A DNA stretch of 64,000 nucleotides, taken from positions 298,303-362,302 of the forward strand of contig JAJEKV010000305.1 in the NCBI GenBank assembly GCA_021234155.1. The letters are read 5' to 3'. The position numbers and the translations under genes are program-made. This stretch comes from Isoetes taiwanensis (taxonomy: Eukaryota; Streptophyta; Lycopodiopsida; Isoetales; Isoetaceae). Shown here in pieces: positions 1,876 to 33,760 of the stretch. Under the pieces are notes generated by a model. It was not told where the DNA came from and searched no databases. It saw only the letters and a program-made list of their open reading frames with translations. Numbering within the stretch: the first letter of the stretch is position 1; every line of letters starts with the position of its first letter.

Positions 1876-3015
1876 TCAATTTTGAGAACCAACTTCAGCT
1901 GGGCCCTGTGAGGATCTGGCCTCCTTAATCTCTCCCAAGTTTATTTTCGAGTTTGAGATCAGGTTCTCTGTGACCTCTTTACAATAATCTGCTGAAGCAC
2001 TCTCTGATTTCTGTGAGCCAGTAAGGCGAGCCAATAGAACAAAAGTATAGCCACCTAGAAGATTATTCAAAGCACGAGTGAACAGCACAGAGGCCTTAAA
2101 GGCTGAAGGAGGCAGCATATTGGCAAGGCTGAATTCAAATCCATTCAGTGCCTGATATCTAAGATTGCTGCTGAATGCCATATGCAAACCCCATGTTACA
2201 GCATTAAGAAAAGTTGGAGGTGGCTTGTTCTGAAGAACAAAATTTTGATCCATCTTTTTTCTGGCATTAAGCAGACCATTTGACAAAGCAGTTCCAAACA
2301 ATCCTGCCAAAAATCCTACTCCAGAAAATATCAAACCCTTATATACGAAAGTTCCACCCCTGTCTAGAAGAGAATAAGCACCGGGCTCAAACATATGTCC
2401 TGCAGGACACTTAGCAAAAATTCCTGGCAATCCTGCCCCTATTGCAGCAGCAGCAGATGTAGGGGCCAGCAAATACATCAGAGTAAAATTAAGTATAGAT
2501 CCTACTACTATAGTCGAGAAAACAAAATCCAGCTCATTGAGACCAAAATTAGGGCGAGAAGCCATGTCTCCTAAAACATTAGCTCCAACTCCGACAACTT
2601 CTTCCATCAAAACCTTGAAAGGAAACTGAGGATCTGCTTTCACTCTGTCTTTCCAACCTTGAAAAAAAAGACTTAAAATACCTCCAGGGTTATTTAATGC
2701 CGAGCTATCATCTGATCCGCCATTATCACCGCCTTTTCCCCACGATCCACCATTGCCACCATCGTTATTGAAACCTCCTGTGCCGTTATTACCACCTTCC
2801 AGGATCATGTAAGGCTCTTCATGCAGTGTGGAAGAAGCTAAGAAGAGATTTTGAAAGGAAGTATGAGAAGAAAAAAAAGATCGAGGTAAAAGCTTTCCTT
2901 GAAAGCTGAGATTTTGAGATTTTGGGCCGATCCGGATTCTGTTATATGCACAGAGCAATGGAGGAGCAAAAAAAGTTGTATTCGCCATAGCCAGAGATGC
3001 CGCCGCCGGATCCAT
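1876..3015 (-). CDS. RETICULATA-related protein (DUF3411), chloroplast
   Basis: Single open frame of 379 codons, intact from ATG to stop. Residues 1-70 are rich in Ser/Ala/Phe with few acidic residues, like a plastid transit peptide. Residues 74-101 are a Gly/Asn linker. Residues about 110-333 match the DUF3411 domain of RETICULATA and RETICULATA-RELATED proteins: GGILSLFFQGWKDRVKADP (111-129), a hydrophobic segment around 165-185, CPAGHMFEPGAYSLLDRGG (203-221), a second hydrophobic segment at 225-244, and SSNLRYQALNG (282-292). Family members sit in the plastid envelope and affect leaf mesophyll development and metabolism; no catalytic activity is established. The start was chosen as the first ATG ahead of the transit peptide. 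No intron interrupts it and it is not embedded in a recognisable element, so it is the best candidate for a working host gene here. I cannot say which RER paralogue it is. Confidence 0.92.
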   Translation of the reverse strand: MDPAAASLAMANTTFFAPPLLCAYNRIRIGPKSQNLSFQGKLLPRSFFSSHTSFQNLFLASSTLHEEPYMILEGGNNGTGGFNNDGGNGGSWGKGGDNGGSDDSSALNNPGGILSLFFQGWKDRVKADPQFPFKVLMEEVVGVGANVLGDMASRPNFGLNELDFVFSTIVVGSILNFTLMYLLAPTSAAAAIGAGLPGIFAKCPAGHMFEPGAYSLLDRGGTFVYKGLIFSGVGFLAGLFGTALSNGLLNARKKMDQNFVLQNKPPPTFLNAVTWGLHMAFSSNLRYQALNGFEFSLANMLPPSAFKASVLFTRALNNLLGGYTFVLLARLTGSQKSESASADYCKEVTENLISNSKINLGEIKEARSSQGPAEVGSQN

Positions 3016-3077
3016 ACTCCCCCCCCTCTGTTTAGAGCTCGGCTTCTGTTTGGGTACTTAAACGGTCCATATTGGCT

Positions 3078-4228: not shown

Positions 4229-4829
4229 ACGCATGCTAGATTTGCCAAAAATACATAAGCAAAAGACGGAATTGCCAAGGTGAATCCTGCATCTGATTCA
4301 AGATTGGAATAGAATTTTCTAGCCTTTGATTAATCAACTGGATCTGGATATATCGATGCGATGCTGGCAACAGAGCAGCAACAATAAGTTCGCGTTGATG
4401 GGAGCATGGAGGCTCCAATTTCGCGCAGAAGAGGACAAAAAAAGGCAGCCAAACCATTTTTTAAAAAGATTGTCAACTTCGATTGGTGTTGACCAACTCC
4501 AACTGCAGCTGGAAAAGGTTAGGAAAAAGGGCCTCATGAAAGTGATTAGCATGCTTGCCTAAATGGAAGTACAAGATTTTTCAGAATTCTAGCATGTCTA
4601 TGTATTTGTTCACCTGTGCAAACTTTGACGTGACACATGCAAAGCTATTTTCATATCAAGCGTCCAGAGAAAGAGAAGCAAAAGTAAAAAGCAACAACAA
4701 CAGCAAAAAACGCAAAAAAAGAAAAAAAAAAAACTTTCGATCTCTCGAATTCCAAGTTCTTCAAGTGAGACAAGCAAACTACCTATTCCATAGTTTCAAC
4801 CTTTTGGGTTGGTGGCTTTCTTGCATCAA
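4229..4829. other. No gene recognised
   Basis: Non-coding sequence with short open frames on both strands and a purine-rich AAAAAACGCAAAAAAAG stretch around 4,700-4,730. I see no domain, repeat end or RNA gene. Confidence 0.5.
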
Positions 4830-5861
4830 GATTGCCCCAGTTCCTTTGTTGCAAGCATCTGTAGCTCATAAGGTTTCTCTAGGGCAGGGAGCACTAGCAT
4901 TGGTGTTGTTGTGAGGGCTACTTTTAGTTCCTCAAAAGCACTATTGCACTTATCTATCCAAGCACCTTGCCATTTCTTGGTGTTCTTCTTTGTCGTCTTT
5001 GTTAGAGAAGCTGCTATGCGTGAGTAATCCCCTAGGCCTAGTAAAATTAGAAATTCCTTAACATTCTTTGGTGTCGGCCATTTCTCTATTGTTTTGACTT
5101 TGGCTATAGGTCTGTGGATAGTCCATTTGCTCCTACTATGTGGCCTAGGTAATCCACAATAAATACCGCAAATGAGGACTTGCTCCTTTTTGCATATAGT
5201 TTGTTCTTCCTAAGAACATCAAAATCATGTCTCAAGTTTGTCACATTCGTGTTGAAGGACTTGAGTACATGAGCACGTCATCAAAAAATGTGCTAATAGA
5301 CTTATCCAAGTATCTACAGAAGATGTAATGCATGAACATTGTTGGTGCGTTGCATAGGCTAGAAGGCTGTGAATTTGTAATGGCGTACCATGTTCTAGAA
5401 CCAGTTTTATGCATGTCCACTTCTTTGATACCACTTTGATGGTATCCTGATTGGTGATCAATCTTTGAAAAGAGTTTGGCACCTTGCAATTGATTAAACA
5501 GATCAGCTGCTCTTGAAAGGGACGTGTTCTTTATAATATCCTTATTCAATCTACATTTGTTGGCCGATCTTATTTTCCAAGAAGAAGGATGGCTCGTAAG
5601 AATGTGCATCAAAAACTTCTTTAGTTGAACTTTGAGCTCGAACATTTTGCATTTTGCATGCCTATGTAGTGGCTTGACCATTGGCTTGGCATCTGCGACA
5701 CGCTTAATTTCACATTCTACTTCCCGCCATAGGGATATATGAGGAGTCTTTTCTAGAATTTATCATCATACTCTGCCTTGAGTTCTTTTATCTTTTATAG
5801 AACAACTTTTTTTTCTTGGTTTTCTTTCAACTCGAGTAACACTAAGATTAGCTCCACATAA
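4830..5861 (-). pseudogene. Ty3/gypsy reverse transcriptase fragment
   Basis: Minus-strand frames give the Ty3-type RT palm: LFNQLQGAKLFSKIDHQSGY (catalytic D in FSKID), NAPTMFMHYIF, and FFDDVLMYSS, where the active-site box reads FFDD. Towards 4,830 come YLGHIV and a WPTPKNVKEFLILLGLGDYS thumb-like block, then the start of RNase H (YELQMLATKELGQ). Upstream (5,700-5,860) is the acidic linker that precedes RT. Several frameshifts separate these blocks and integrase is absent. It belongs to the same element as the protease at 18.8-19.3 kb. Confidence 0.8.
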
Positions 5862-6588: not shown

Positions 6589-6592
6589 TGCC

Positions 6593-6614
6593 GGGTAAAA
6601 GCATGAAAGGGTGT
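6593..6614 (+). repeat. Left terminal inverted repeat of the 9.27-kb transposon
   Basis: Begins GGGTAAAAGCATGAAAGGGT and matches 15844-15865 on the other strand without mismatch over 22 bp. It is preceded by target duplication TGCC at 6589-6592. Similarity ends right after GTGT. Confidence 0.9.
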
Positions 6615-6699
6615 ACGTACATCGTACTGAATTGAAGGACGAATTTGTGCTTTTTTGGGGTACATTTTAGATGTACATCAAGATACTATGGTTTGTCGT

Positions 6700-9600
6700 T
6701 TTGTGTCAGATATGCAATGATTGCAAGATCATCCCTGACATTCCCCCCGAAATTCTTGGTTAACCACCGAACCACCGAACCAATTCGAATGGATCCGTCC
6801 CTCCCTTTCCGAAATCCCCCCCTTTCACAGGACGAACACCGAACGAATTCCAGAAGCAAATACATGCCAATTGAATCTACAAGAAATACAAATCAATTTC
6901 AATGCTCATGGAGGGTGAGAATTCCAATGGAAGTGATGGTTCTAAGCGCCAAGTATGCCGACATTGGCGGTGTTATGCCACAAAACAAATAAAGCGGCGT
7001 GTTGGCAAGGTCGGTGGATTGCATCCTCGATTCCGTCGGCCAAACGCTTTCGCCCAGATCAAAGATTAGTTTTTGTGATCGCTTTGTTGCAAGATGACAG
7101 CTTTTTTTCGTTTTCAAACCCGTAATTGGAAATCCTTCCGGGTTATTGTTATGAAATCAATGATCAGAAGCTTGAAAGATGGGCTTCAAGAAGTAAAGTC
7201 CGCTAATAGCAAAGATAAATTGGATGCAAAACATTCATCATTATCAATGATTGTTGGAAAAAAGGAGATATAAACAAGAATGTTTCTTCAAAATTGCTAA
7301 AGATACGACCAAGAAATTTATCCAAAGTGCAAAAGAAGAAGGAAGATAATGTCATTAAGTGGAGCAAATGTATGGGCTTTGGCCGGAAGGATGCCAAGAT
7401 CAAATAGAATCGATGATTCAATCAAATGTCAGGGTTACGTGAATTTTGGCTTGATAATACCAAAGTTTCACCAAAGGTTAGAGATGTCATGAAGAGGAGA
7501 ACACAAGCAATACAATACCTTGATATCTCCTGAGTGTTTGCTCTTGTAATTGAATCAATTCAGTTTTGGAGATTATGTTTTCTTCCAAAATTCTTTCATG
7601 ACTTTCTTCTGTACATTCTAGTTCTGTTCCGAGTGACCTGTTAATGAATACACATGGTTTTCATGAAATGTATTGCATTTTACATTGTTTACATTTATAC
7701 ATTGTTTACATAGTAGCAGAAATCTTGCAGTGATGTGCTATTAGGTACTTTTTAGATGTACATCCATTAACACTTACATGTCCATGCAGCTGCATTTACA
7801 TGTACTTGAATATCAAAATTACATCATTTTACATTTTAGTGTACTTTCAGGTAATGAAGCCAAACAAATCAGACATATGTACATTAGTTGTACTAATATT
7901 GTAACATTAATGTGATGTACTAATATTGGAACATTAATTAGATGTACATTAGATGTACACTGGATGTACATTGGATGTACAATAACAAATCAGTGGAACT
8001 GTTGGCTGTACATTAGATGTACTGATGTACATTAGATGTACAGTAACAGATCAGTGGAACTGTTGGATGGACATTTTATGTACATAGAACATACATTAAT
8101 TGTACAATAGTATAGTTCAATACTCTTTTGGCATCCGGGTTTGACATCATTTTGCTAACATGGTCTTTAATGCTTTTGTTATTGGTCGAAGCTTTATCAT
8201 CAGTTTGTATATCGTAATCCCCGATACCAAAATTACCGACCGGCTCGAAGTATCCAAACCCTGATTGCATAAGGAAATTGAAGGAGAGAAACACATGTTG
8301 TTGTGTCAAACATGAGCAAGCAGATCCGCACGTAAAGGCCTTCAATGATATGAGGAGATCCCTACATGTTAATTGCACTTTTGCCGGCGGGCAGTTGTTC
8401 CGCGGCATCCCAAAGAAACAATGGAGTATGTCAAGCAAACAAGAAGACTTTTGATAATGTTAGTATCTTGTGGAGGTCAACAAGTTATGAGAAATATGTG
8501 ACGGATGAATGGCATAAACTAAAATGCATCAAAGGCTTAATGTGATGAATATGGAGGAAGAAATTAGACATCCGTCCAAATGAGGAAGATGGAGTTGAGA
8601 ATGTGGTGGCAAGTATATGCATATGTCAATGAGCCATCCAAAAGGTACATCCGAAGGCTTAGATTAGTTGATCGTAATGACAAAGCATCTGCTTTGTTAA
8701 AGAACATGAAAAATCAGCTTGCTAAGTTCCTGATCATAACTTTACAAAGACAATCGGGCAGAGCAAACGGTTTAAAAGATGTGTTGAGAAACTCCCGGAT
8801 AATAGTGTGTTGTCCGTTGTTGACTTTGCGAGAACTACACATTGAAACCAGGGGACGTAGTGCAATCCGAGCATTGGAATCTGATCAAATTAGTATTTTG
8901 GTCCATATTTCAATGATGAAAATAGAAGGTAAGCTTAAAAAACGGTGCATTTCTATGTTTCGATGACGGTGAAGCATGACACTCATTTTGTGCAACATGG
9001 TTTTAAATTACATTTGGGGTGGCTTAAGAATAATGGAGGTGGACACATAAACCTTCATTATGTGTGGTCGGATAGTTGTGCATCTCAATTCAAATCTGCG
9101 GGCATGGTATGGAATCGTAGATACCATGTTGAAAAATAAAATTCGAGTGATATGGAATTTCTTTGGATCCGCCATGGGAAAGGCACGCATGATGGCGAGC
9201 CCGGTATAGCAAAGTTGTGGCTTGAGAGCGAAAGCAGAGAAAACAAAATGGCATGCCGGTGACAGTAAAAGCGGCTTTTGTGCGCTTTTAAGGGCCAAGG
9301 AATCGATTGTGAAAGGGTGTTTTGGGAGGTTGGAAAACAGATGTGAACAGCAGCAAGCATTCAATTGCAAGACTTTACCACGGTACTCGCCAGATACATT
9401 ACAGGTCAACTATAAACCCAAAGATCCAACAAAGTTGCTATATGCACCACTCTCGTGCTTTTGTGATGCTTGCATTAACTTCAATTGGTTGAATTGTGAG
9501 AACATTAAACATTGTGGAGAATGGTCTCTAAAAGTTTGAGCCCACGTGATCATATTGCCTCTCGTGTTGAAGCTGAAAAATGATGTGGATGTTTTGTATC

Positions 9601-9880
9601 AGAGGACTAGGCCGGGTTTAGATGACACCTTGAAGTCGCTGTTCGGATGTATTTGTGTCTTTTGCAAAGCACTGCACAATGTGGAAGGTGTTTCATACTA
9701 TGTTCTCATGTGCACCAGGAAAAGCATGCATTGGAAGAAGATTCAATTGATGACTATGGAAATGAATACTCTGCCGGCACTAGTGTCATTGAAGGACAAT
9801 ATTATGAACTAATCCCCGCCGCCACAATAAGTATAAACCGCTTCCTACTAAGAATGTTTTGGTACCTGCAGAACTGGTGA
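6700..9880 (+). pseudogene. Transposase of the 9.27-kb element (DDD type), frameshifted
   Basis: Fragments in several + frames make one protein. An N-terminal block at about 7,440-7,530 reads LREFWLDNTKVSPKVRDVMK. A putative first catalytic Asp lies in VVDFA at about 8,817-8,830, in a block whose shifted frame continues ENYTLKPGDVVQSEHWN. VKHDTHFVQHGFKLHLGWL at about 8,965-9,020 is followed by WSDSCASQFKSA, with the second Asp codon at 9071-9073. After a frameshift, HGKGTHDGEPG has the third Asp at 9191-9193. A Cys-rich block SCFCDACINF at 9,450-9,480 and a C-terminal YYVLMCTRK/GQYYELIP block follow to about 9,880. This order matches a plant transposase-like family I remember but cannot name formally; the second copy at 53.4-55.7 kb has the same blocks. 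Several frameshifts and a Gly-to-Ser change after the second Asp make it non-functional. Confidence 0.7.
7736..8106. repeat. TGTACAT/ATGTACA palindrome array 1
   Basis: About 15 GTACAT or ATGTACA motifs in 370 bp, many as the compound ATGTACATTAGATGTACA. A 50-bp stretch ending in CAGTGGAACTGTTGG is duplicated at about 7,990 and 8,050. The same motif recurs at 10,083-10,146, 13,908-14,330 and near both ends, and is rare elsewhere in the window, so it belongs to this transposon. By analogy with other DNA transposons, such arrays can be transposase-binding sites. Confidence 0.8.
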
Positions 9881-10082
9881 TTGGGGTTGAATCCCATTCA
9901 AGAAAGTAAAACACAAGATGAAGGGGCAAGCACAACATTTCACTTGCCGATGAAGTCCATGAGACATTGTTATCACAACTTCCAAAGAATTGTAGATGAC
10001 ATGGACTAAGTCGATCTGTAGTACTTTCCAGAAATATTGTAATACTTTGTTATAAGAAATGAAGAACCGGACTACTTCGAAG

Positions 10083-10150
10083 TGCATTATGTACATCAAT
10101 GTACATAAGATGTACAACAAATGTACATCTTATGTACATATGTTGTACAT
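10083..10150. repeat. TGTACAT palindrome array 2
   Basis: Seven overlapping TGTACA/GTACAT motifs within 70 bp. It lies between the 3' ends of the plus-strand transposase and the minus-strand HAD gene, that is, in the tail-to-tail interval. Confidence 0.75.
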
Positions 10151-10389
10151 TCGTAAATATTATAAAAATTTGTTAAGTGTAAGTTGATTAGAATTGAACA
10201 CAAGAAAGTTGAATTGCATAAACATTAAAAAAATGGTTTCAGTCATGGCAAAGATAAGAAATGGACAGTTTTCATGTACAAATGGTTGATATATTTATAT
10301 TGTGGACATAAATACAACACACTTAGAAAATGAGCATGGCTCATAATTCATGACCAAGCTTCAAAATGTCGGTAGGAGCCTGATATCTT

Positions 10390-11049
10390 ATGACTATTGC
10401 ATCATGTCTTCCGGCCGAGAGGCTCAAGAGATATCCTCTAAAAGCAAAGAGTCCATGCGGTTTCTATAGCACGTGCCATCGGCAAACCTTTCCATCCTAC
10501 ATGGCTCGCGTGATCTTCCAGACACGTGCCTTCCCCAAGGGTTGTGCAACAAGTGATTTGTTGCCAATATACCTTTCATGGTTGCTCGTTCCTCATAATT
10601 TTCAATTTGCTCAACCTTTTTCCAAAGTTCAGAACAAAGAAGATAGAGGGCGATAATCGGTCCCCAACCCTATGTACTTGCAGCTTGTGTTGGTTTGTAT
10701 TACCTCTGGGTGCAAAGCAGTAACTCTATCTCTTAGTTTCTTAATAGTCTTTTGTGTTTCAGTCCATTCATCTACAAAGCAAATGAAGATCACTTAATTA
10801 TGTATACACACTCATAATTGTACCAATAAGAAAGACAAGAAAAACAGAGTACTCAAGTGCAATGAACAAAAACTTTGATACATATATTCATAACATTTGA
10901 ATTTGTACATCAGTCAAAGTCTGTACCAACAATGGGCCAGTCAAGAGGCCAATAACATGATGGCGCTTTCTCCATTCCTTTGTTCGTGATATTGACTAAA
11001 TTTAGGCAACAAAGCACCCAAGTTTGCCATAGTTTGCCAAAGAAAAATC
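10390..11049 (-). other. Coding-like minus-strand sequence, unidentified
   Basis: Minus-strand frames near 10,390-10,660 and 10,980-11,100 have coding character but I recognise no domain. They could be the 3' part of the HAD gene. The expected HAD motif IV (acidic VDD-type) was not found here. Confidence 0.3.
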
Positions 11050-11700
11050 TGTTCCACCGCCCGATATGCCATCTGCTGCATTAGTCATTGGATGCTCTTT
11101 CACATAAACTATACCATCTTTCGCCATTTTGAATCCATTAAGCCATGGAATGAGCTCCATGACAAGCAATGTCACCGCCTAATATCGGTATCAAGAGAAA
11201 GGACATATGTAGCTTCCACACGGGATTCAAAGTGGATTTGTATCTTTCGCCGTCGATCGAACTGTATGTTCATAGTACTCTGGGTACTCTTTCCATACCA
11301 CAACTAATGGTTTCACAAACAACCCTTTTGAGGTTCAAGTAGGGTGTTTGTGTGGCGAGTCCAACACCGCGCTCCCCGGTTGTAAACAAACTTCACTTTA
11401 TGGAAAAAGCATCACAAATATGTTCCACAATTGGTTGAAGATTTTTAGAAGTGAGTGAAGACCAGATGGCAACATCAAACCCTTCTCTTACAAATGCTAA
11501 TAGTTGATGCTAACCCGGCTTAAAAAGAAAAAGAACTGTTCATTTCCTATATTAAATTGAAGCTCATCTTTACGGATCTGTTGGTATCTTGAGTTAATAT
11601 TTTCATTCTTGTGCACACTCTTGCCCAACACGTAATTTAAGTCAAAGATAATGAGCTTTCTCCCGAATTAGATGATTCACAAATTCTCAGCAAAAACACT
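11050..11700 (-). pseudogene. FCP1/SCP-like HAD phosphatase, transposon cargo
   Basis: Reading minus strand, 11,650-11,626 gives LIIFDLNYVLGKSVH, the DxDx motif I of FCP1/SCP-type HAD proteins with Asn in place of the second Asp. About 60 codons on comes a block reading HQLLAFVREGFDVAIWSSLT at about 11,510-11,450, motif II with its Ser/Thr, then SKNLQPIVEHI. Downstream frames (FTTGERGVGLATQTPYLNLK) continue but are frameshifted, and motif IV was not located. Family members dephosphorylate phospho-Ser/Thr, classically in the RNA polymerase II CTD. The D-L-N motif would be expected to weaken catalysis. The gene lies tail to tail with the transposase. A second copy of this domain is at 57,588-58,160. 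Confidence 0.7.
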
Positions 11701-11899
11701 TGAGATTCACAATTTATAATTACATTTCAGGATCACACAATTGAGAAAACACATTGATAATTACACGATTGTTATTTGCCGAGGTGTAAGTGAGACAAAT
11801 AAATTAATTTTTCATTACTTATTGAGTACAAAGAAGCTCTGAGCATGGCTCATACAAAATTGTAATTTACAAACAAGTCAAAGGGACTATCTACCCCGT

Positions 11900-12680
11900 G
11901 TAGGAACAAGCGCTTGTATATTCATCTGCGCCTTCTACAATTAATGCCTCCATTAGATGATCCCTCCGTGACTTGGCATAGGCATCGATGAACCAACCGG
12001 GTGTCATACGCATGGTGCACAAGTATTAGAGGACTATACCAACAAATAACTAATAGGAAAATAACATGTTCTACTTACAAAAATGGAGCTTGGCATTGCA
12101 TCAACCACGAGCATCTATGAATTTGTGCATGTAAGCCACAATGTACATGCAAGGGTTCTTTGGTACTAGTTTTCGCATTTTAGGATGAGAACACGTGAGC
12201 ATCAAAGTTCTTCCTACCATGGCTTGCCGCTGATCCGAGCATCATGTTATTGATCACAAGCTTATGAAACCTCGCAAAATTGCAAAATGTGAGAATAAAT
12301 CAAGCATAAGAAATTGCAATATGAGAATAATCAAATCATAAATACAAAACGAAACTCATACTTACCTCGGACCACTTTAGCATCGGTTACATAGCCTTTT
12401 GAGGGAGAGGATCTCAGATACTTGGGCTAGCTATAGATGGAAAAGAGCTTTTCTTTGGACCGCAAGCACAAGTATTGCCAATGCCACATTTGGGCCTTTG
12501 AAGAATTGGAACAAATATGTATTGGCATCTTGCAATCAAAATGCCATCCAGCCCTTCCTTTATGTTAGTGTTACGTATCCGCCACTTGTTCTTGAGGGAA
12601 TTCACAAAATTCTAGAAGGTGTCCCATCGAACAGTAAAAACTTGTGTTTCCAATCGGATGGAACACTTGCTACAAAGGTA
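11900..12680 (-). pseudogene. Ulp1/C48-like cysteine protease, transposon cargo
   Basis: Minus-strand exon-like blocks: CQYIFVPILQ followed, in a shifted frame, by a block with WHWQYLCLRSKEKLFSIY (His codon about 12,478-12,489), matching the H-W plus hydrophobic strand of Ulp1 peptidases. The residue 17-18 positions after His, normally Asp in YDS, is missing (TAT runs straight into AGC then a stop). A splice-donor-like GGTAAGT follows near 12,365. After an intron-like gap comes LVPKNPCMYIVAYMHKFIDA (Cys codon about 12,149-12,151), resembling the catalytic Cys block, again followed by GTAAGT. A last block MRMTPGWFIDAYAKSRRDHL ends at a stop near 11,900. Ulp1 proteases cleave SUMO and are repeatedly captured by plant DNA transposons. 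Family assignment is by motif pattern only. Confidence 0.5.
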
Positions 12681-13190
12681 CCGCACACAAATACGAGAAT
12701 ACATATTAATACATAAGATGAGTGACTTAGGGAATGAAATAACATAAATATGTTGAAATGCTAGCCTACCTCCCATAGACATCTACCATCTTAGAGGTCA
12801 AGTCCACTTCCAGGAAACCTCGCCAACATCACTTTGAAAGATAGAGGGTGCGGGGCTTAGGAGGACAAAGTCCTATAAAGGAGTGAATGGAACCAACCTT
12901 TTAGTGGGTTCACTAAACTGCATAAGGAAACAACAAAGATTAGCAAAAAGAATATATCTATTGTAATCAATTGTATATTACTCACCTTGTAAATTCATCA
13001 TCCGCTTCAAAGATCTTCGTGGATCTATTTGCACCTTATTTGTTATCACATCAATATTTGTTTGTAGATCCTCTTCCTCTTAGGTTCGGAGCTTGAAGGA
13101 TCGGGATCAGCTTCCTTCACGCCTGTGATGGTGTCCTATGTACAAAAAAAATGTGGTTAATTATCATAAATCTGAGATGTTTAACAAAAA

Positions 13191-15640
13191 TTAGTTCATC
13201 TTGGACATACCTTTTCTAGGTGGTGGTGGCACTTTTTTTTGCACGGAGATTTTCTTTTCAGGAGGACATTTTTTTTTGTTTTGGAGATTTTGCCTGTTTC
13301 TTTTTTTTCCTCTTGGAGTGCCATCACCAAAGCATTCTTTTGCCTCCCTCTTTGGAGTGGACTCAACTACCAAATCAACTTCCTCTTCCCCTGGTATCTC
13401 CGGGATAAAATCACGGATCTGTGTCCTTTGTAAGCTTCTTACGTAACGGGTCCAGGCTGGGACTCCGCAGATGATGCCGAGGAGGAAAATTCGAATCTTT
13501 CTTAGCTTCTCCAATTACTAATTTAGCACTTGGTGATGAAAGAGTTTCGTTGCGTAGCCATTGAAGGATGCAGACCGCAAGAATCGCTTTTAGCTTTCAA
13601 GTGCCATCCTCTCAATTTCCTCAACTTCACTTTGCCATGTTCGAGGAGGCATTTTGCATGGTTCTATTAACCGGCTTGTAAATGTCATTGGTGATCTGGA
13701 GCTGGAAGGTTGAGGGTCTACGTATTGGCCCCTTATTATGCTCAAGAAAATCACAAAGAGAGTCGATGCAGATGGCTCAAGAACATCAGCCATTAAAGTC
13801 GCTCGGGAGGAACACGACCTCATCTCGCAAAACAAACAAATGATCTAAATTTCAATAGACATAAAAGAACATGAAAAAGAACTAATGAGAAATATCGGTA
13901 CATTTCGCCAAGCATGTACATTTCATGTACATAAAATGTACCAAAAATGCGTAACTACATTTAACTATAGCCAAATGTACATGTACATGTTCCTCAATGT
14001 ACATAGAGGTACCTCAATGTACCCGGATGTACCGGGATGTACCCGTGTATCCAGTTAGGGAATGTAGATCTATGCCCAAAAAAGCACATATATGTAAAAA
14101 TGCACATACTTATGAATCCATCTACGATGCACTCTAAAGATAAATGCATGTACATCTATTTGCGATGTAGACTCCATTAGAGACATGTACAACTAATACA
14201 ACCGCAGTCCAAGCTCAAAAATAAAAAGCATCAATAAACAAGCAAATATATGCCTATGTACCTCTGCTTCTGGATGTACATTAAAAGTTATACATGTACA
14301 AGGAATAGCAATGCAATCGAAAAGCCATACATGTAGAACTATCTGATTACAATAACAAATATGAATTAAGAGAAATATAAGTTTAAATTAGTTGAGAGCA
14401 ATGCATACCTTTCACAAAGAGGGAAACCAAGCTGAATTTGAATGCCCTCATCCCGGATGCAACCTTTATGCAATTCCACGTCTTTCATGGACGAAGATAA
14501 CACAAGCGTAAGAGGCAATAAGCATCTCTCGCATGGAGCTAGCAAAGAACAAACCGTTTTGCCAAAGCCTTGGCCACAACAGTACATGAACTGAATGTGA
14601 TAAACCGCTCTATAGAAGTAGTTCCTACAGGGGGCCTGGGTGTAAAAGAACAATAGGTCCCGCTCTCCCCATGAAATCCAAAATCTGGAATGCCTTTGCT
14701 GAACCAATTCAATGCAATTAAGTTTTTCCTTTGCTTGTTCAATTGAGATTTCATGCCTTTCAATTTCTTTTAGTTGCTTCCTCGCAAACCAATTTCTAGC
14801 TTAGAAGAGTGCTGCTCTTTATCATGTCTACTCATAACCAAGTCTTCCAACTTGGACTTCAACACCAAGATAACTTGATTTCCAGCAGGATCCACGGGAC
14901 AATTTGTCAAATTCTGTTTTGTCTCATCTATTTTCTCGCAGATCTCACAGATCTTCTGGATAGCATATCCTTTTCTACCCTCAATCCGGGGTGATGACCT
15001 TCAATGCATCCCTCCTTTTTTTCTTCCGGGGCTTCTACTTCATTCAATAGGTTAGTTTTCTCCTCCAACCCATGCTTAACTAACTACTTTATTGTGTCAA
15101 CATCCGATCTAGAATAACCCAAGGCTCTAATATTTCACGCAACACGATGTCATGTTTGATAGTTGAGGATTTACCATTGTAGGGTCCTCAGAACGCCTCG
15201 AAATGAGGTTTTGGCAAGATCTTTGGCGGCCCTAGCCACGTCCATCCAATCAACAAGCCGTCCCTTCAAGTGAAAGAGCAAATGCTCGCAAAATAGGTAG
15301 AAATATAATGGTTTGTAACTTTGTTTCTTGCCATAAACCAATTCATAATATTTAAAAATCATCTTTCCATCGTTCGGATTCTCCCTTCCTTGAATCCTCG
15401 CCTCTTTTTTGAGCTTCACCCCATACCTCGTTCATAACCATCTCTAGGTTGGGTATGTGGGCCTCTCGTGATGTTTATCACGGAGGTCTTTGGCTTGGAT
15501 CACCTCGTAACCCAAATGTAAACTCCTTGGAGGTAAAATTCCACCGCCGGGAAGCTTGGCTTCTTGCTTGGCCGTGATGTGAGCAAGCACTCATCCGGGG
15601 CGTTTTGGGGCCATAGCTAGATGAAGAATTCGCGGATCGA
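13191..15640 (-). pseudogene. Minus-strand coiled-coil/lysine-rich ORFs of the transposon
   Basis: Several open blocks on the minus strand probably formed one or two genes upstream of the Ulp1-like exons. From the right: MAPKRPG near 15,610, a block LPGGGILPPRSLHLGYEVIQ, then 15,419-15,171 (MKLKKEARIQGREN..., ending RGVLRTLQW). A helical, charged block at about 15,000-14,700 (SKLEDLVMSRHDKEQHSSKL) precedes a Cys-containing block to 14,366. Further left come 13,835-13,590 and a Lys/Pro-rich tail at 13,514-13,191 with KKRNRQNLQNKKK, which could be a nuclear signal. I recognise no domain. Position suggests the N-terminal part of the Ulp1-like protein or a separate accessory protein. Confidence 0.4.
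13908..14330. repeat. TGTACAT palindrome array 3
   Basis: About 14 GTACAT/TGTACA motifs in 420 bp, including ACATGTACATGTTC and the run AATGTACCCGGATGTACCGG. It is embedded between two minus-strand ORF blocks and mirrors array 1 at a similar distance from the other end of the element (about 1.5 kb in, versus 1.1 kb). Confidence 0.75.
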
Positions 15641-15843
15641 ATTCAAGCAGAGAAGGTGGGGGATAGTGAACGAGAGGCAAACCAAGAAAGAATTTGGGAA
15701 AGAATTTCAAAATCCGATAATTGCGGGTTCAGAGTAGTGGATAGCCATTAATCATGGCAGTTACTAGCGGGTCATGATGACAGTTATTCCAAAAATGTGC
15801 ATTCGGTACATATGTATACGTACAAAAAGGGCTACATTTATAG

Positions 15844-15865
15844 ACACCCTTTCATGCTTTTACCC
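15844..15865 (-). repeat. Right terminal inverted repeat of the 9.27-kb transposon
   Basis: Perfect 22-bp inverted match to 6593-6614, followed directly by target duplication TGCC (15866-15869). Confidence 0.9.
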
Positions 15866-15869
15866 TGCC

Positions 15870-19658: not shown

Positions 19659-20867
19659 TCAACCAGGCTTTACACAAATGGAAGGCCAGACTCTGAAGCT
19701 GGGCCACCCGCTAGGTACACCCCCAAAAGAACCTCTTGACTCCGGAGCGAGATGTGAAAGAGGCGCTGGACCCACTGCCATGCCGGCTGGATGCCTGAGC
19801 AAAGAAACATAGAGTGCTCCAGGGTCTCTACACAGGCACCACACATTGGACACAGGTCGCTGATTAGCGGATTGATCCTGTGAACCCACGTGTTCACCCT
19901 CAGGGATCGGTGCACTATCTGCCACAGCAACACCCGAATCTTGGAGGGGCGAGATTGGGTTCCACACCCGTCTCCAGATGTTGCCCAAGTCATCTCCCGG
20001 CACCTGGAGACTCCAGCCGTCCGAAGGAGACAGCTCATCCTGAATTGCCAGAAGCTCATAACAGGACTTTACGAAATTTGAAGGATCCACTTTTGGGTGA
20101 CACCTCCACACTCGTCCTGGCGCCTGCGGGGAGTTTAGCGGCAGCGCATTAGCCACCCGCGCCCAGATAGCGCAATCCCATTCCTGAAGTTGAAACTTGT
20201 GGCGAAAAAGCTGCCAGGGTGCCAACTGCCTGTCAACATACCACTCCCCCACCGTCAAGACCCCATGCTGCGCCCATCTGCGCTGAACTCGGGGATCGAC
20301 GGATGTTGCCAGCACCAAAGGTGATGCACCAGGATCGAGCGGGATCCATCATGGCGATGCCTCTAACTGAATACAACTAACAGCATCAATCGCAAACAGC
20401 GGGCGGACCTGCTCCCAGGCTCGTAGAAGCCCCTTCAGAAAAGGCAAAGCATGAGCATACGACCTGATATCCGTGAATAATGCCCACGGGAGCCACGCAA
20501 GCACGGACGGCTTGTGGAAAACTATCGAGTGAGACAACGACTGGTGAAGCAAGACCATGCCCGGGGAGTCAAGCATGTTCTTGAGGATCGCAAAGACAAA
20601 CTTGGACAAGAGGACCTTGCTATGGAGCGAGAGGTCCAAGAAGCCGAGTCCACCCGCAGCTTTGGGGCGCACGCATTTCCACCAGGCCACCTTGACAACC
20701 GCCCCTTCCTCATTGCCTCCCCATACGAAGTTACGAACCATGGAGGAGATTTCGAACTTTGCTTTCTGGCGCCAGGATGATAGATGCCATATAAATATGA
20801 GTTGAGCATAAAGCGGACTTATGCTAATCGCGGACCCCGCCAAGCCATGGAAAGCCCCCTCCACCAA
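19659..20867 (-). pseudogene. LINE ORF2, C-terminal part with zf-RVT
   Basis: 20,867-20,349 carries the post-RT block (FVWGGNEEGAVVKVAWWKCV, AAGGLGFLDLSLHSKVLLSK). 20,318-19,659 carries WNPISPLQD-type and, in the next frame, LCPMCGACVETLEHSMFLC, the C-C-H-C zinc knuckle of plant L1 elements. The frame shifts between the blocks. Confidence 0.85.
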
Positions 20868-21052
20868 TTAAGGTGTCGACCACGGTCCCACCCGAATGTC
20901 CTCCCACACACTTGCCGCCGAGATGTCGATCTTTGAGCGGGATACCCAAAAGCCTAGAGCATATGCCTGTAAGGCGTTTCGCTCAAGGAAATTGAGACAC
21001 GACGGCGAGCATGGGTGCGATGCGGCCATAATGCCCGAGCACTTCGTCCAGT

Positions 21053-22448
21053 TCATGAGGCACCCGAAGCCGGGGAGAATGTGTCCAACAGCTCCTTCGT
21101 GTTTAACAGATTCCTCTCATTGGCCCATCGGCGTACTGACTTCCAATCTGCTGCGACCCGTCTGCCATTCTCAGCCCCTCCATAACACCAGCCTCTACTG
21201 CGGAGATCAACAACTGCGAGAGGGCCTCTGCAACGATGGTAAATAGGAAGGGCGCCAAAGGGCATCCCTGGCGAACTCCACGCCCCACCCTAGAGATCGG
21301 CGATGACTTGCCGTGACATAGGAGGGTGGCTCTGGCGGACGTCAAGAGCTTCAAAGCCACTGCCGTAAAGCTCTCGCCACACCCAAATGCTAACATCATC
21401 CTTTTCAAAAAATCCCAACGAACACTATCATAGGTCTTTCTTAAGTCCGACCCCGGTACACAATCTGCTGACACTGTTCTCTGGCGCTTGATGAATGCCC
21501 TCAAATGCCGCCGCTACATTGTTAAGAATCTGCCTGCCCAAAATGAAGCTAGACTGCATGGGACTAATAGCCTTCTTCAGGGCCCCATGCAGTCTAAGTG
21601 AAAGTGCCTTCATGGTAATTTTGTATACTGCCGACAAAAGCATGATGGGGCGCCAATCAGAGATGACAAATGGCTCCTTCACCTTCGATATCAACGAGAT
21701 GCAGCCAGTGTTGAGCCTATAATCCAGCGCCTCTGCCTGAAGCAGATTTTGATAGGTCTGCAACACTGAATCCCCCACCCAATCCCAATATTCCTGAAAG
21801 AACTCGACCGGAATGTCGTCCAGACCACGGCACTTATGAGGGGCCAAGGCACGGCACGCCTCCTCAAGCTCCTGCTTTGTGAGCGGGTGCTGCAACGCCT
21901 GCCTTGCATGACACTTTACTGAGCACGATCTCCTCCATCACGTCCGTGTAGGGATATCTCTTTTCCTGAAAAAACTGAGAGAAATGCTGAAAAGTAGCAT
22001 GTTTGATGTCTACAGGCGAGTGCAGAATACGACCACCGGCCAATGCCAGTGACGTCATTGAGGCCGCATACTTCTTCTGTCGCGCCGCCCTAAAGAACAT
22101 TCGAGAATTGGTGTCCCCTTCCCGCAGCCAGGTGATCCCTGCCTTCACCCTTGCCTGAGCAGCCCTCTTGGATTCCTCTGCTGCAATGTGGCGCAATATC
22201 TCATTCTCCCGCACCCCATCAGATGGCTGCGATCTAAGGGTTTCCAATTCGTGATACAATGCCTCTAACACCTCCCGCTCTTGCCGTGCTCTCCGACTTC
22301 CCCACGACTTGGGGAATGCCTTGACCTCAGCCAGGGCCTTCACCATTCTTGTCATCCCGAAGTTATCCCGAAAGGTACGAAACCAAATCTGCTGGCATCC
22401 CCAAGAGAAATCAACATCCTTTAGGTAAGCGGTATTTAACGTGAACAC
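21053..22448 (-). pseudogene. LINE ORF2, reverse transcriptase domain
   Basis: Blocks in order: FPKSWGSRRARQER and GITWLREGDTNSRMFFRAAR (pre-RT, 22.4-22.1 kb), ELEEACRALAPHKCRGLDDI and ISDWRPIMLLSAVYKI (RT 1-2), DLRKTYDSVRWDFLKRMM (palm, D in place), RGVRQGCPLAPFLFTIVAEA, then QYADGP where L1 has YADD. The YADG change and at least two frameshifts inactivate it. Typical plant L1 clade. Confidence 0.88.
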
Positions 22449-23057
22449 TGTGCGCCCGGCCTGACTGCACTTGAACCCTGGGAGATTAACTGAGGAAAAT
22501 GGTCAGAGACTGCGGTAGACAAAATGTTCTTCCGCTTGAGCTGAGGCACCTGGTCCGATGCCAGGGTATTAGCATAGCATCTGTCGTGTCGAGCGTACGC
22601 CCAGTCGGCCCCCGTCCACTGATTACACCGAGTAAATGTAGAGTCGTCCGGCGCCTCTGCCAAGTGCAAGGAGTCCAACAACATCACCCACTGCTGCCGC
22701 TCAAAACCCTGCACCACTTCCGCTCCTCTGCCACACCTATCCTGAATGGACTCGACCATGTTGAAATCGCCCAGCAGCAGCCAAGCCACACCAGCCCCCG
22801 AAGATGCGACCTTGTGCCTCAGCAATGCCCACAACGCCCCTCTCTGTCGCGCACTGTTGTGGGCATAGACATTCACAGTCCCCCACTCGTGCGGTCCCTC
22901 TCGCCACTTGACAATGACCCACCTGCCCCAACGGTCGGCCAGGGTAAAAGTCACCTGCACATGCATCTTCCATGCAACGACAGTCCCACCTTTAGAGGCC
23001 CCAGAGGTGGCAACTGCAGCAGCGTATTGCGGCCCAAACATGTCCAGTAATGCCCTA
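22436..23057 (-). pseudogene. LINE ORF2, endonuclease domain (partial)
   Basis: Minus frame with WGTVNVYAHNSARQRGALWA, VAWLLLGDFNMVES (the GDFN box of APE-type endonucleases) and a C-terminal TAVSDHFPQL (SDH box). The N-terminal catalytic N/E blocks are missing through 5' truncation. The longer open frame that runs on to 23,191 is a chance fusion with flanking gypsy gag and should not be read as one protein. Confidence 0.85.
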
Positions 23058-23072
23058 GCGAATTTCGACTTT

Positions 23073-24345
23073 CGGCAACTATGGGACAAGTGTCTAGCTA
23101 ACATGCAAAAGAAACATAACTTTTTGGATCTAGCTATTACCTTCTGATCAAGTATCGGCTTGTCTACAAATTTCTTAAGCTTTGGGTGCAATGGTGGCCT
23201 CTTTTCTCTTTCGAATTTTCTGATGTCTGGCCTTTCACTCTCAATTCTTCGAATCCTATCTTGTCAGCTAAATTATGTTCCTTGGTAAATTCCTATGTCT
23301 CTTTTGAAATTTCCTAACATTTCCTTGAAGAAACCTCTCCTTTCAAAAGGTTGGCAGTAGATCTTCCTTTGTTGTCGTCGTCGTTGACATCATCGTCATC
23401 ACTGTCGTCGTCTCTTACTGATAATGCAAAGCTTACATGCTTGCTGCAATAGACTCTACATTCTTAGCATAGTTTTCTTCCTCCCTTATGATCATGGGTC
23501 TACAATTCTTGACCTGCTCCTTTATTTCTTGTCAAACACCTTCAATGAATCCTTCGACGACTTCTTCTTCTAAGATGCATTTGTAGAGTTTGAAACTCAT
23601 GTAAATGCACGTGTATTCATATATGGATTTATTTTTTTGTGTTAGCCTTGCTAAAGCTTGTCTTTTCTCTATCATAGTTAGAATTTAATCTCTTTGGTAG
23701 ATTGCTAGAAAGATTTTCATTTAGTTGTGCCTTATTTCATTGTTCTCATTTCCGCAAGGTTTCTGCAGCAAGATGCGTGCTACTCTGGTTAACCTTCCCA
23801 TAGCTACTCTTGTGATGCTAATAAAATTCAGTTGGTTGCCAATACAAAATTGTTGTACCTAGTGAAACCATACTTCTAGTATGATCCATTTTGTTCTCTT
23901 CACACCTTAAAGGTTTGGAGGTTTGTGTTCTTCCACAAGGCTGCAATGATATCTTGTTGCTTTCTTACTTCCTCGACATCTTTATGCTATTTCTTATTGT
24001 TGTTCCAATCGTTATGAGATGGTGATGAGCTAAGAGATTTGTCCTTTTCCGTCTTGTTCTGAGCGAGTCATGCTAGATCATCTAGTAGCTAATGTCACTC
24101 TTGCGTGCATTGCTTGGGAATGTGAGCATGAGCATGAGAATACGCTCTTTGCGGATCTTGTAGGAGATTTAGGGTGTCTTCTTTGATATCCTAAGGCGTA
24201 GAAAGTCTCAAATTCTTTCCTCATAGTTCGAGATGTTTTGGCTACTAATTGCCTTATCTCCTCTTGGTTCATTAGGGTAAGAGGTTATAGTTGATGTGTG
24301 TATCATTCTTGTAGGCTCCATTTCTATTGTCGCATATGATTTCGT
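23073..24345 (-). pseudogene. Ty3/gypsy gag with CCHC knuckle
   Basis: Minus-strand fragments: near 24,330-24,080 a start-like MNQEEIRQLVAKTSRTMRKE block, and near 23,150-23,075 KKLCFFCMLARHLSHSCRKS, which fits C-x2-C-x4-H-x4-C with the usual Gly-His spacing altered. Gag capsid-like sequence between them is frameshifted. The LINE at 19,340-23,057 inserted a few codons after the knuckle. A short acidic repeat (23,376-23,412, GTCGTCGTCGTTGACATCAT) may be part of gag. Confidence 0.6.
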
Positions 24346-26959: not shown

Positions 26960-27820
26960 GATCCGTAGTATTGTCCCCGTAGGAACATGCTCAATCACGA
27001 ACACCTTATCGACCACAAGGTCCCTTACAAAATGATAATGCTTGGGAACATGCTTAGATTTTGATGCGAACTCGTGAGGAGCACCAATCAATGCCACCTT
27101 TGTTATCCATGAGCATCCTTGCTGGTCCAGAGAGTCGTTGCCCAACGCCGCAAGAAAGTCCTTGAAACTAATGATCTCACCGCCGTGGAGATTTGCAACA
27201 TACTCCGGCCAGTAGATGAAAGAGATACATGCCCTTGTTTCTTGCTGATCCAAGCAATGGCAGCATTGGCAAGCAGAAAACAAATGTCGGATGTGGACCT
27301 GGAGTTGTCTATCACATCGCTAAGTGAGGAATCACTATATGTCAGCAATGAGAAAGCATCACTATTGCTGCGGTATGTAAGGCCATAATCAGCGGTACCC
27401 TTTAAGTAGCCCGGAGAATGTGCTTGGCCATTTCCCAATGCTTATGACCGGATCTCGCTGAAAATTGGCTTAGAGCTATAACAGCAAATGCAATATCAGG
27501 TCTGGTGCAAACCATGCAATACATGAGGCTGCCAATCAATTGCCGAAATGGAACTTTTGCCATAGAAAGACGTTCAGCATCAGATTGTGGACAATCTTTC
27601 TTAGTGAGAAGAGTACCTGGAGTCATAGGAACTTTAGATGGATTGCAATCAGCCATGCCAAAGCGCTCAAGCATTTCTTCAATGTACTTCTTTTGAGAGA
27701 TATGAAGAATCCCATTGTTCCGGTCTCTTGTAATTTGCAAACCCAAACAATAGCGAGCTTCACCCAAGTCTACCATTGGAAACTTAGCAGCAAGCTTTGT
27801 CTTGAATTCAGCAATGTGCT
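26960..27820 (-). pseudogene. Copia RT C-terminus and RNase H
   Basis: Minus frames read FKTKLAAKFPMVDLGEARYC and LGLQITRDRNNGILHISQKK (27.8-27.7 kb), FGMADCNPSKVPMTPGT, RQLIGSLMYCMVCTRPDIAF, then RNase H blocks LTYSDSSLSDVIDNSRSTSD and SKKQGHVSLSST. These are standard Ty1/copia signatures. A frameshift after the RNase H core moves the remainder into another frame. The RT N-terminal half continues at 34,580 on the other side of the insert. Confidence 0.9.
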
Positions 27821-27824
27821 CATT

Positions 27825-28805
27825 CCTAGGATGGGTTCTATAATAGGCATATACTGGCCGGAAGTGAAGTGGTGTTCTCATTGAGCTTTGTAAAACATTG
27901 AGTACAAATGGATCCCTCACTAGGGATAGATAAATTTGGAAATATGAACTTTAAATGCTCCGAAACTAGACAATCATCGAGAGCATGATGAAACTGAAGA
28001 ATACAACATAAAAAATGGTTTAATCCGCCACTTGGTCGATGCAAAGGTGAGAAGACCCGGTGACTGCTCCTCATCGGGAAGAAGAAGCACTCCTTCTTGG
28101 GTTTTTGAGGAAACCCAAGCAAATAGTTGAAGCACGACCCCACGCACTATGGCAACCACAAAGCCTTAAACAAACCCCGGCAGAATCAAAAAATTTGAGA
28201 AAAAAATAACCCATCAATGAGTTAGATGCCATAGGCAAGAAGACCTCTGAGGCTCCAGGCCACGCCAGAAAGAAACTCTGACCAACCCAATCGGGAACCG
28301 TCCGCGGAATGACCATCAGCGGGAAAAAAACAACCGATTAGTCTTTGCTGCCGAGGAGGCTAAATACACGCCGAGAAAAACAATAAATATGATCTCCGGA
28401 GGCAACAGCCACTTGCCTTAGAGAAACATGAATAATAAATATTGACTCGCAGGCTACAAAGCCACACAGAGAAAACATGAATGAATAAATAAAAATACTA
28501 GTGCCATACCGAGAAAAGAGTAAACCAATAAGTATGCCTCAAAAGGCTACAAAGCCAATGTTGAGGAAATAAAGAATGCAAATTTAAAGAACATAGAAAA
28601 AAGAGATAACGAACACGCATCAAATGAAACCATCAAGGGAGGGAGGGTGAGGGAAACTGATAGGATAGAGAAGAAGGAGAAATCTAGCTCAAGAGAACGA
28701 AGCATGATGATAGAACAATGAAGAGAGGCTGAATAACAGGAGGAGGACAAAGGATCGCCCCCATCCAGGAATGTCGGCTCTATTGCCGTCGCAATAGAAC
28801 CGTGG
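27825..28805. mobile_element. Element A of a CATT-flanked insertion pair
   Basis: A 981-bp non-coding element inserted in the copia RT. It starts CCTAGGATGGGTTCTATAAT and ends CAATAGAACCGTGG, flanked by CATT at 27821-27824 and 28806-28809. Its last 165 bp or so are near-identical to the end of element B, and its first 30 bp to the start of B, while the interiors differ. I cannot assign the family; the TATTTATTCAGCC phrase near one end (minus strand) resembles a retroelement promoter. Confidence 0.7.
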
Positions 28806-28899
28806 CATTCCTAGGATGGGTCCTATAATAGGTACATATAATCCGCCGATAGAAGAGGAACAAACTAAAAAAACTACTCAAAGATGGAAATAAAAGAAG

Positions 28900-31800: not shown

Positions 31801-32100
31801 GACAAACAGTGACTAGGTTAACATGGCGACAATTGGACATGCAAAAGCAAATGAACATGAAATATAGAAGCAAAACGCAACAACGAGTTTACAATGGTCA
31901 ACAGGATGCCCAATGTGTCAATATCAAAATGAAGGGACCCATCAAACAAGAAAACAAAGTGAAACTGATAGGAAATGGGATCGTAACAAGAGGAACATAG
32001 TACAAATGGAAGAAATAGAAGAGTTAAAGACAACAAAGGGGACATAATGGAATACATATGGTAAAAGGAACCAACAATAATTGATACTACAACCAGGAGT
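28900..32100. repeat. Decayed long-period direct repeats in element B
   Basis: The phrase ACGAGTCTACAA..GGTC followed by GAATGCACA recurs at about 28,938 and 29,618, and in weaker form near 31,880. A 250-bp block around CTATGCAGTACAAGC at about 30,352 recurs at 31,500, an offset of about 1.15 kb, with flanking phrases TGCTAAGAATG and ATCAGATGAAACC in the same order. The copies are only moderately similar, so the amplification is old. Confidence 0.6.
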
Positions 32101-32849
32101 GGATAGGATGAGACACATATGATAAGAAAAGAAAGAGAAGAAAAGGGCAACAAAACGAATGAGAAATTGAACAAAAGGAGCAAATCAGGAAGAGGCAAAA
32201 GGAAGCAAATGGAATCAAAAGGAAGCAAATGGAAGTAAAGAGAAGGCAGACGTTAGATGGAGTAAATCGATCATAAAAAGGTAACGAGAAGGCAAAAAGT
32301 TAGATGGAGCAAACGGGTCAAATAAGACAATATGGCTATGAAGGAGCGCCGACAATCTATGAAACCTCCACTAATGTAGCCTACCACATGAAAAGAAAAC
32401 AACAACAATATAGCCAACAAGGACGGAAAGAATGGGAGAAACGAACCTAATGAAAAGTCAAAAGGACTACGTGGAATGAAGTGAATGGCGCAATCAAGCT
32501 AAACAAAACAAAAAAGTACTCAACTAAAAACCATGTGCAGTTAAAATGACACAAAGAAACCTATATGGGGCCAAAAGATGTAAACACCATCATGTGAAAT
32601 GCCGTGGATATAGGAGTAAAGGTTGCAAATGTTCCAAGAATCTTCATCGACATCATACTTCTAAAAACCCAAAACAATAGCCAAATAGCCAAAATCGAGA
32701 CATACCTCCACTTAAATGTTCTAATGAGAGGCAGATGATAAAAAAGAGGCCATGATGCACTTAGGTGGGTCCAGCGGGAATTGAGGCACCAAGGTTGGAG
32801 GGCATGTTGATTGACAACAAGAAAGGCTCAAACTGGCTGATGACTTCTT

Positions 32850-33265
32850 TAGTATGACGAAGGGATAAGGATAAGGAACCCTACGAGAGATTGGTCCAAA
32901 GAAACGTTTTATATCATTCATATATAACAAAAAACTATAGCAAAAAATAACCCCTTCTACTTCTTTAGCATCATGAAGGGATAAGGAACCCTACGAGATA
33001 TTTGTTGCAGAATAATGCTAGTGAAATGCATATCATCCATATAAAACAAAAATACGGCAAAAATATGTTTTGCTGCATATCGTTATATAAAACAAAAAAT
33101 AACCCATCGTGTGCTTGTGAAGATTCGAACCCAAGTCCCTTTGCAAACAAAATGCATATCATTTAAATAAAACAAAACATAATCCCATCGTGTGCTTGTG
33201 AAGATTCGAACCCAAGTTCCCACCCTAACAGGCGAACAATGTTACCAATGCGCTATCTAAATGGA
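32850..33265 (-). repeat. Duplicated tRNA-like/SINE-like segment
   Basis: CATCGTGTGCTTGTGAAGATTCGAACCCAAGT occurs at about 33,107 and 33,187 (quoted here only as its key parts: GTGAAGATTCGAACCCAAG). On minus, the right copy reads TAGCGCATTGGTAACA (A-box-like), then GGTTCGAATC (B-box-like) about 40 nt later. Left of it, GGGATAAGGAACCCTACGAG is also duplicated (about 32,865 and 32,978). It looks like a tRNA-derived SINE head amplified within element B. Confidence 0.5.
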
Positions 33266-33760
33266 TGTTATAACAAATGGAATACATTTCTATTTACGAC
33301 ATTAATAAATCTGAAACCAGACATGGCGGACATTACCTGAGCTCTGATCCATCGACAACAGTCCATCCGCAGTTGCCTATACCTGGTCGATCCAAGATCC
33401 GGAGCTGGAGAGGGTGTAGGATGGAGCCTGTAGGAGCCCACAAGTGAAACGGAGGGATTGAAGCCACAACAGAGGCCTGGTGGGCGGCCCATAATTGTAA
33501 TCGATTCCTTGGACTAAGAGGTAAATATCACTTTAGAAGCATCACGAAAAACAGAAGCAATCTAATTTTTAGCTATGAAGAGCAACCATCCTAGACCCAT
33601 CTAAGTACCAGCCAGACAGAAACCAACCGAGTTGACAAAAGAATATACACATCAAACCTGCTGTCATCCTCTATTAGAGCACAAGACCTCAATCACACCG
33701 ATTAAACTGCCCAGATTGGAAAAAACCCTGGACCAAAATACCAAGAACCAAATCTGAAGC

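Follow-up and report, generated by a model that had tools for sequence, protein, structure and literature searches.

To our knowledge, transposon genes that counteract silencing are known mainly from Mutator-like elements (MULEs) of Arabidopsis. Published accounts describe VANC and KIU as second genes of the VANDAL and Kaonashi MULEs, which lack terminal inverted repeats (TIRs), with a Ulp1 domain in KIU, and place tandem short motifs that differ among related elements in introns and upstream regions (PMC5735166, PMC13317346). The VANC21 targets are reported to lie in tandem repeats in the VANC21 and VANB21 introns and upstream of VANA21, repeats that vary among related elements (PMC5735166); a 2026 review lists the Ulp1 domain of some VANC genes (KIU) as having an unknown function (PMC13317346). 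Here we describe an element from the lycophyte Isoetes taiwanensis, contained in a 64,000-nucleotide stretch (the window) of contig JAJEKV010000305.1, that shares a second gene and short motif arrays with these MULEs and is unlike them in its transposase, its 4-bp target site duplications, its clear TIRs and an added NIF domain; demethylation by its second gene (gene 2) would be putative.

The window carries a defunct copy of a cut-and-paste DNA transposon with two genes. Gene 2 appears, from sequence comparison, to encode a C48-like domain fused to a NIF domain and to be under purifying selection, and the NIF domain keeps the same tail-to-tail position beside the transposase of a second, distant family. 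A silencing-related plant domain is likewise carried on DNA transposons where MULEs have captured PMD genes, and one member of that family, MAIL3, joins PMD to a Ser/Thr phosphatase domain (PMC5418596). These cases differ from the Isoetes element in having unrelated domains and an unrelated transposase, and a phosphatase that is not of the HAD/NIF type. No report of a NIF-carrying transposon was found among the titles and abstract openings listed by searches of the open-licence PMC literature. The features of the element are as follows.

6589 to 6592: left target site duplication, TGCC (4-mer flank comparison, 15 copies)
6593 to 6614, plus strand: left TIR, GGGTAAAAGCATGAAAGGGTGT (repeat search and copy alignment)
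6974 to 7530, plus strand: N-terminal coding part of the transposase, degenerate (tblastn with an L030 frame as query)
8248 to 9987, plus strand: core and C-terminal part of the transposase, degenerate, with an RNase H-type DDD core (homology and model of a homologue)
10347 to 10778, minus strand: gene 2, conserved C-terminal exon (comparison with L031 and copies)
11062 to 11664, minus strand: gene 2, NIF (HAD, UBLCP1-like) domain, 7 stops (family NIF query, 219 bits)
11930 to 11995, minus strand: gene 2, short exon linking the C48-like and NIF parts (exon comparison)
12110 to 12263, minus strand: gene 2, C48-like exon, Cys kept (..PCMYIVAYMHKFID) (exon comparison and profile)
12417 to 12680, minus strand: gene 2, C48-like exon, His site altered (exon comparison and profile)
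12772 to 12926, minus strand: gene 2, exon preceding the C48-like exons (exon comparison)
13190 to 13842, minus strand: gene 2, low-complexity lysine-/acid-rich coding-looking part (by eye, likeness to L031)
14480 to 15640, minus strand: coding-looking region (MAPKRPQ... in the consensus, coiled-coil-like) that either opens gene 2 or represents a third gene (copy consensus)
15844 to 15865, minus strand: right TIR (repeat search and copy alignment)
15866 to 15869: right target site duplication, TGCC (4-mer flank comparison)

The element and its transposase

The element occupies window positions 6593 to 15865 (about 9.3 kb) with TGCC at either flank, its ends having been set by comparing 15 copies; the inverted repeats detected at 6590 to 6614 and 15844 to 15868 are 25 nt long and 96% complementary, and the termini read GGGTAAAAGC. 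We searched 1,658,258,908 bases in 1,110 contigs, from an assembly of Nanopore, Illumina and Bionano data that is reported as 1658.30 Mb in 204 scaffolds and 909 unplaced contigs (PMC8566536). With a DNA query of the phosphatase/protease region, at least 41 matches were obtained, the window included, the others being 88-92% identical to the query (40 of 503 candidates scored). Twenty copies were retrieved, 14 of them full length (9.11-9.40 kb), to which the window copy adds a 15th; pairwise identity among copies is 91.9-95.7%, and two copies (L009 and L018) diverge immediately inside the left repeat. The 4-bp flanks are identical in 15 of 15 full-length copies, and agreement of 5-mers was 0 of 14 among the retrieved ones. 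In the window copy both genes are broken; possible residual Nanopore indels within repeats mean that some frame breaks may be artefacts.

The transposase ends near 9987, tail to tail with gene 2, and the initial annotation was correct in placing two domains, which it called an FCP1-like phosphatase and a Ulp1-like protease, on the minus strand between the inverted repeats and tail to tail with the transposase. The homologue P0002 gives an RNase H-like predicted model in which D171, D256 and D297 are conserved and would form the catalytic DDD triad, and it is predicted to share the fold of RNase H integrases. A second structure comparison of the model led to integrases; against this placement, Foldseek returned no match at E <= 0.001 and ranked NurA and Argonaute chains first. 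Homologues of the transposase occur in Taxus and Ptychodera. The transposase P0001 matched nothing in NCBIfam, and a pattern search of viral contigs for relatives matched 139 stretches, none of which was confirmed.

Target duplications of 9-11 bp characterize MULE/Mutator elements; CACTA elements have CACTA ends and 3-bp duplications, and Sola elements combine a transposase of the DDD type with duplications of 4 bp. A MULE or CACTA setting is excluded by the 4-bp duplications together with the integrase-fold transposase: MULE membership was rejected on the 4-mer and 5-mer counts given above, and CACTA membership on the GGGTAAAAGC ends and the 4-bp duplications. The element looks Sola-like, sharing with Sola the 4-bp duplications and the putative DDD transposase. 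We know of no Sola element carrying NIF or C48. The element at L032, which belongs to the second family, has a 4-bp duplication as well (ACCT, by eye).

Domains and constraint of gene 2

The Pfam NIF profile (PF03031, cut-off 21.8 bits) matched a typed consensus piece (E 2.2e-11, 44.1 bits), L030 (E 1.9e-14, 54.1 bits) and a 423-aa frame of L032 (E 4.6e-19, 69.1 bits), confirming that a HAD relative lies inside the transposon. By profile, the domain appears closest to UBLCP1/HAD-IIID and HIF-SF rather than to FCP1. For L031, a copy from a sister subfamily, the nearest NCBIfam model was HAD_IIID1 (TIGR02245; E 5.1e-8, 32.7 bits, below the cut-off of 192.25), and for L032 it was HIF-SF (E 1.7e-10) followed by HAD_IIID1 (E 1.2e-7), both far under their cut-offs. 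FCP1_euk (TIGR02250) was not among the matches at E <= 1 for either, and the positive control, a host gene in L033, scored 139.2 against the FCP1_euk cut-off of 135.25; on these grounds FCP1 identity was rejected. The top match in PDB, and the only convincing one, was UBLCP1 (3shq; E 9.7e-6 for L031, 0.011 for L032), from which the element protein differs in that no ubiquitin-like domain was seen in it, in its low NCBIfam score and in its motif I. A search of a large protein set for NIF homologues at E <= 0.001 returned none for L031 (1220 candidates) or L032 (268), but it requires shared 5-residue words, so that absence is not shown. Active NIF phosphatases carry a motif I of the form DxDx(T/V), and HAD enzymology leads one to expect weaker catalysis without the second Asp. 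This motif reads DLNSV, DLNFV or DINGV in the five NIF sequences compared, each of which has Asn for the second Asp, and the window version is DLNYV; none of the Tyr/Asn variants restores an Asp, and the change would weaken catalysis.

In gene 2 the C48-like domain comes first, followed by NIF and the conserved C-terminal part. Exons 5' of NIF are present in the window and in the retrieved copies, frequently with breaks. In L031, eight GT-AG models connect the C48-like exons with the NIF exon without a stop (492-502 aa in six of them), so that both domains are predicted to lie in one spliced frame in that copy. When a four-row family profile was compared with PDB, the two chains at E <= 10 were both SENP7 (whole-chain E 0.0035 and 0.0044), with collinear stretches around the His and Cys motifs. 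In L036, a neighbour of a third-group transposase, the equivalent region (hand-joined exons) matched Pfam Peptidase_C48 (PF02902; E 2.8e-6, 27.8 against 20.7 bits), and E-H-F and P-Q-Q-N are readable, so that the C48 His and Gln are present; the Cys codon is unreadable. Several results weigh against this assignment: the two SENP7 stretches are weak singly (i-E 0.51 and >100), and Pfam did not recognize the L031 version. In addition, the C48-like row had no match in NCBIfam, and the L036 region alone matched four PDB chains, all at E 0.077 or worse, with a designed protein and a methyltransferase ranking above SENP7. We conclude from the profile matches that the domain is probably a descendant of a C48 peptidase, as had been proposed. 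SENP7/Ulp2-like peptidases are the sole PDB family reached from the profile, by a match spanning both catalytic motifs; they differ in that the window subfamily and L031 have His changed to Asn, Asp to Ala or Val and Gln to Thr, with Cys kept. Proteolysis has probably been lost in the window subfamily.

These residues bear on whether gene 2 encodes active enzymes, the NIF domain acting on the Pol II C-terminal domain (CTD), the proteasome or silencing factors and the C48 domain removing SUMO. We consider this unlikely. The NIF scores above the Pfam cut-off, the motif IV Asp pair and further NIF motifs readable in L029 and L009, and the His and Gln of L036 speak for it; the Asn in motif I, the three altered C48-like residues and the unreadable L036 Cys codon speak against it. 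Neither a Pol II CTD phosphatase nor an active deSUMOylase is therefore supported for the window subfamily, the nearest relative being UBLCP1 rather than FCP1 and the catalytic residues being altered.

Constraint was estimated as the ratio of nonsynonymous to synonymous change (dN/dS) from stop-free stretches only, which favours intact ones. For NIF it was 0.20-0.33 between subfamilies, while synonymous sites were saturated in the comparison with L032. Against L031, values were 0.16-0.35 for the two main C48-like exons, 0.10-0.32 for the preceding exon, 0.31-0.36 for the 36-aa exon, 0.37-0.55 for the less constrained C-terminal exon and 0.22-0.37 for the transposase. Some values run counter to constraint: 0.44 in one short C48-like stretch, 0.71 in one stretch of the preceding exon and, with few changes in each case, 2.2 for the 36-aa exon and 1.0 for the C-terminal exon with L030. 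Two near-identical copies gave 0.92 for NIF (11 changes). Taken together, gene 2 appears to be under purifying selection, as expected of an element gene. Between L031 and the window family, the transposase has a synonymous distance of 0.26-0.53 and the greater part of gene 2 a larger one, about 0.4-0.9, hinting at gene exchange between subfamilies.

Recurrence beside transposases

Copies retrieved with the phosphatase/protease region as bait are uninformative about the presence of this cargo, and recurrence was counted with other baits; transposase and NIF counts are minimum figures, and a locus for which no NIF is listed may or may not carry one. With the P0001 transposase as bait, NIF lay within 9 kb at at least 27 of 88 loci (88 scored of 11,688 candidates). 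All 28 pairs were on opposite strands and 27 were tail to tail, 20 of those 1.1-1.6 kb apart, against 0.14 pairs expected by chance. With an L032-type transposase (150 of 8,344 candidates scored), at least 15 loci lay no more than 9 kb from one of 92 NIF matches; every one of the 15 pairs was on opposite strands and 14 were tail to tail, representing 13 distinct NIF loci (one pairs twice), with 0.15 expected. Neither family's NIF set paired with the other family's transposase, and 58 further NIF matches, classed by hand as host-like or partial, adjoin neither transposase set. Left-end DNA as bait found cargo at at least 15 of 40 matches, with NIF at 13 of them.

NIF thus recurs more widely than the C48-like/NIF pair. 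The recurrence across the family that the initial annotation proposed as a check held for NIF at the P0001-type loci and the 13 loci of the second family; it did not extend to the C48-like partner in L032, where NIF was seen and no C48-like region was (by eye only). Other observations that limit recurrence are that NIF was not seen by eye in L035 and L036 of the third group (3.2-kb pieces), that transposase loci at about 50-59% identity had no neighbour among the NIF matches listed, and that L034, also of the third group, appears interrupted by an insertion. Just past the gene-2 C-terminal exon of L034, upstream of 4259 on the minus strand, an LTR-type or other insertion was noted, with gag-like frames beyond (by eye).

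A one-off transduplication, in which pieces of a host phosphatase and protease ride as functionless passengers, could explain the 7 stops in the window NIF and the stops in many copies, and gene-piece capture is frequent in plant transposons (PMC13317346). We regard it as highly improbable, given the constant tail-to-tail placement that two distant families share, dN/dS mostly of 0.2-0.3 between subfamilies and the continuous spliced frame in L031; placement and selection contradict a one-off capture, the outcome named at the outset as refuting. In this lycophyte, a phosphatase-like domain belongs to the regular, selected equipment of a transposase lineage apparently unrelated to the MULEs, and in one family it is joined to a SENP-like domain.

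TGTACA arrays and possible roles of gene 2

The element is rich in TGTACA, with 32 occurrences against 2.8 expected and 5 in the remaining 54.7 kb of the window; ATGTACAT occurs 19 times against 0.27 expected. The spacing is often 11 bp, near one helical turn, and the motif clusters in non-coding parts (motif counts):

7610 to 8106: TGTACA array between the transposase coding parts, probable intron
10090 to 10280: TGTACA array separating the tails of the two genes
13915 to 14300: TGTACA array upstream of the low-complexity part

In each of the 14 full-length copies TGTACA occurs 29-34 times, which common descent explains. The arrays persist in the sister subfamily: the L031 locus has 28 against 4.1 expected, clustered at matching places (by eye), at a gene-2 synonymous distance of about 0.7. 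L030 has 15 against 2.7 expected, and L034 has a GAGTACAT-type array in place of TGTACA.

The reading that we prefer, tentatively and at a little under an even chance, is that gene 2 is the element's counterpart of VANC, encoding a helper or a factor against silencing that binds the element's own arrays and acts without catalysis. Its protein would work by binding, because the catalytic residues of both domains are altered in the window subfamily while selection continues; it would probably recognize the short arrays, as VANC of Arabidopsis VANDALs does, and bring SUMO- and phosphoprotein-binding modules to them, and the outcome there may be that silencing is countered or transposition assisted. 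Gene 2 may thus far be credited with a putative part in silencing or in regulation. Weighing against the proposal, no DNA-binding domain was recognized in gene 2, the L032 element has no enrichment to speak of (3 TGTACA against 1.6 expected), and it may instead be the transposase or a host factor that uses the arrays.

TNPA of En/Spm and mudrB of MuDR are thought to assemble transposition complexes. Gene 2 may do the same by binding subterminal and internal arrays, with no anti-silencing role, and the two-gene layout, the short motif repeated in non-coding parts and a constraint on gene 2 similar to that on the transposase are consistent with this; the arrays are internal (7.6-8.1, 10.1-10.3 and 13.9-14.3 kb) rather than terminal, and we hold such a helper to be rather doubtful. 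SBP-box proteins bind a GTAC core, and TGTACA in RNA resembles part of a Pumilio site. The palindromic arrays, and perhaps the conservation of gene 2, may serve host regulation, with a host factor at the GTAC core or a Pumilio protein at UGUA in RNA and gene 2 doing something else. This seems quite improbable, as there are only 5 copies of the exact Pumilio-like TGTACATA on each strand of the element and the array type differs between subfamilies.

If the preferred reading, array binding without catalysis, is extended, the lycophyte Sola-like lineage may have evolved its own anti-silencing system independently of MULEs: a C48-like/NIF fusion, turned from enzyme to reader in the window subfamily, would recognize 11-bp-spaced TGTACA arrays, with array and protein changing together between subfamilies. 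We offer this wider proposal as possible but not likely. Should gene 2 act on silencing, transposons would have reached Ulp-type domains for that purpose on at least two occasions, and a comparison could help to explain why KIU has a Ulp1 domain. It may also be asked which partners are bound by two pseudoenzyme-like domains that selection maintains.

Elsewhere in the window, a second, short match to the C-terminal part of the transposase lies at 53959 to 54117 on the minus strand (E 2.5e-5) and may be a remnant of a further element of this superfamily. By eye, remains of a Ty3-like reverse transcriptase lie directly left of the element (4826 to 5759, minus strand), and other frames of retroelement type, among them Copia-like pieces and one of 525 aa resembling a reverse transcriptase, lie at 19659 to 23263 and 27402 to 36969 on the minus strand and 44447 to 46994 on the plus strand. 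An open frame of 393 aa (1876 to 3057, minus strand) resembles a host plastid membrane protein, also by eye.
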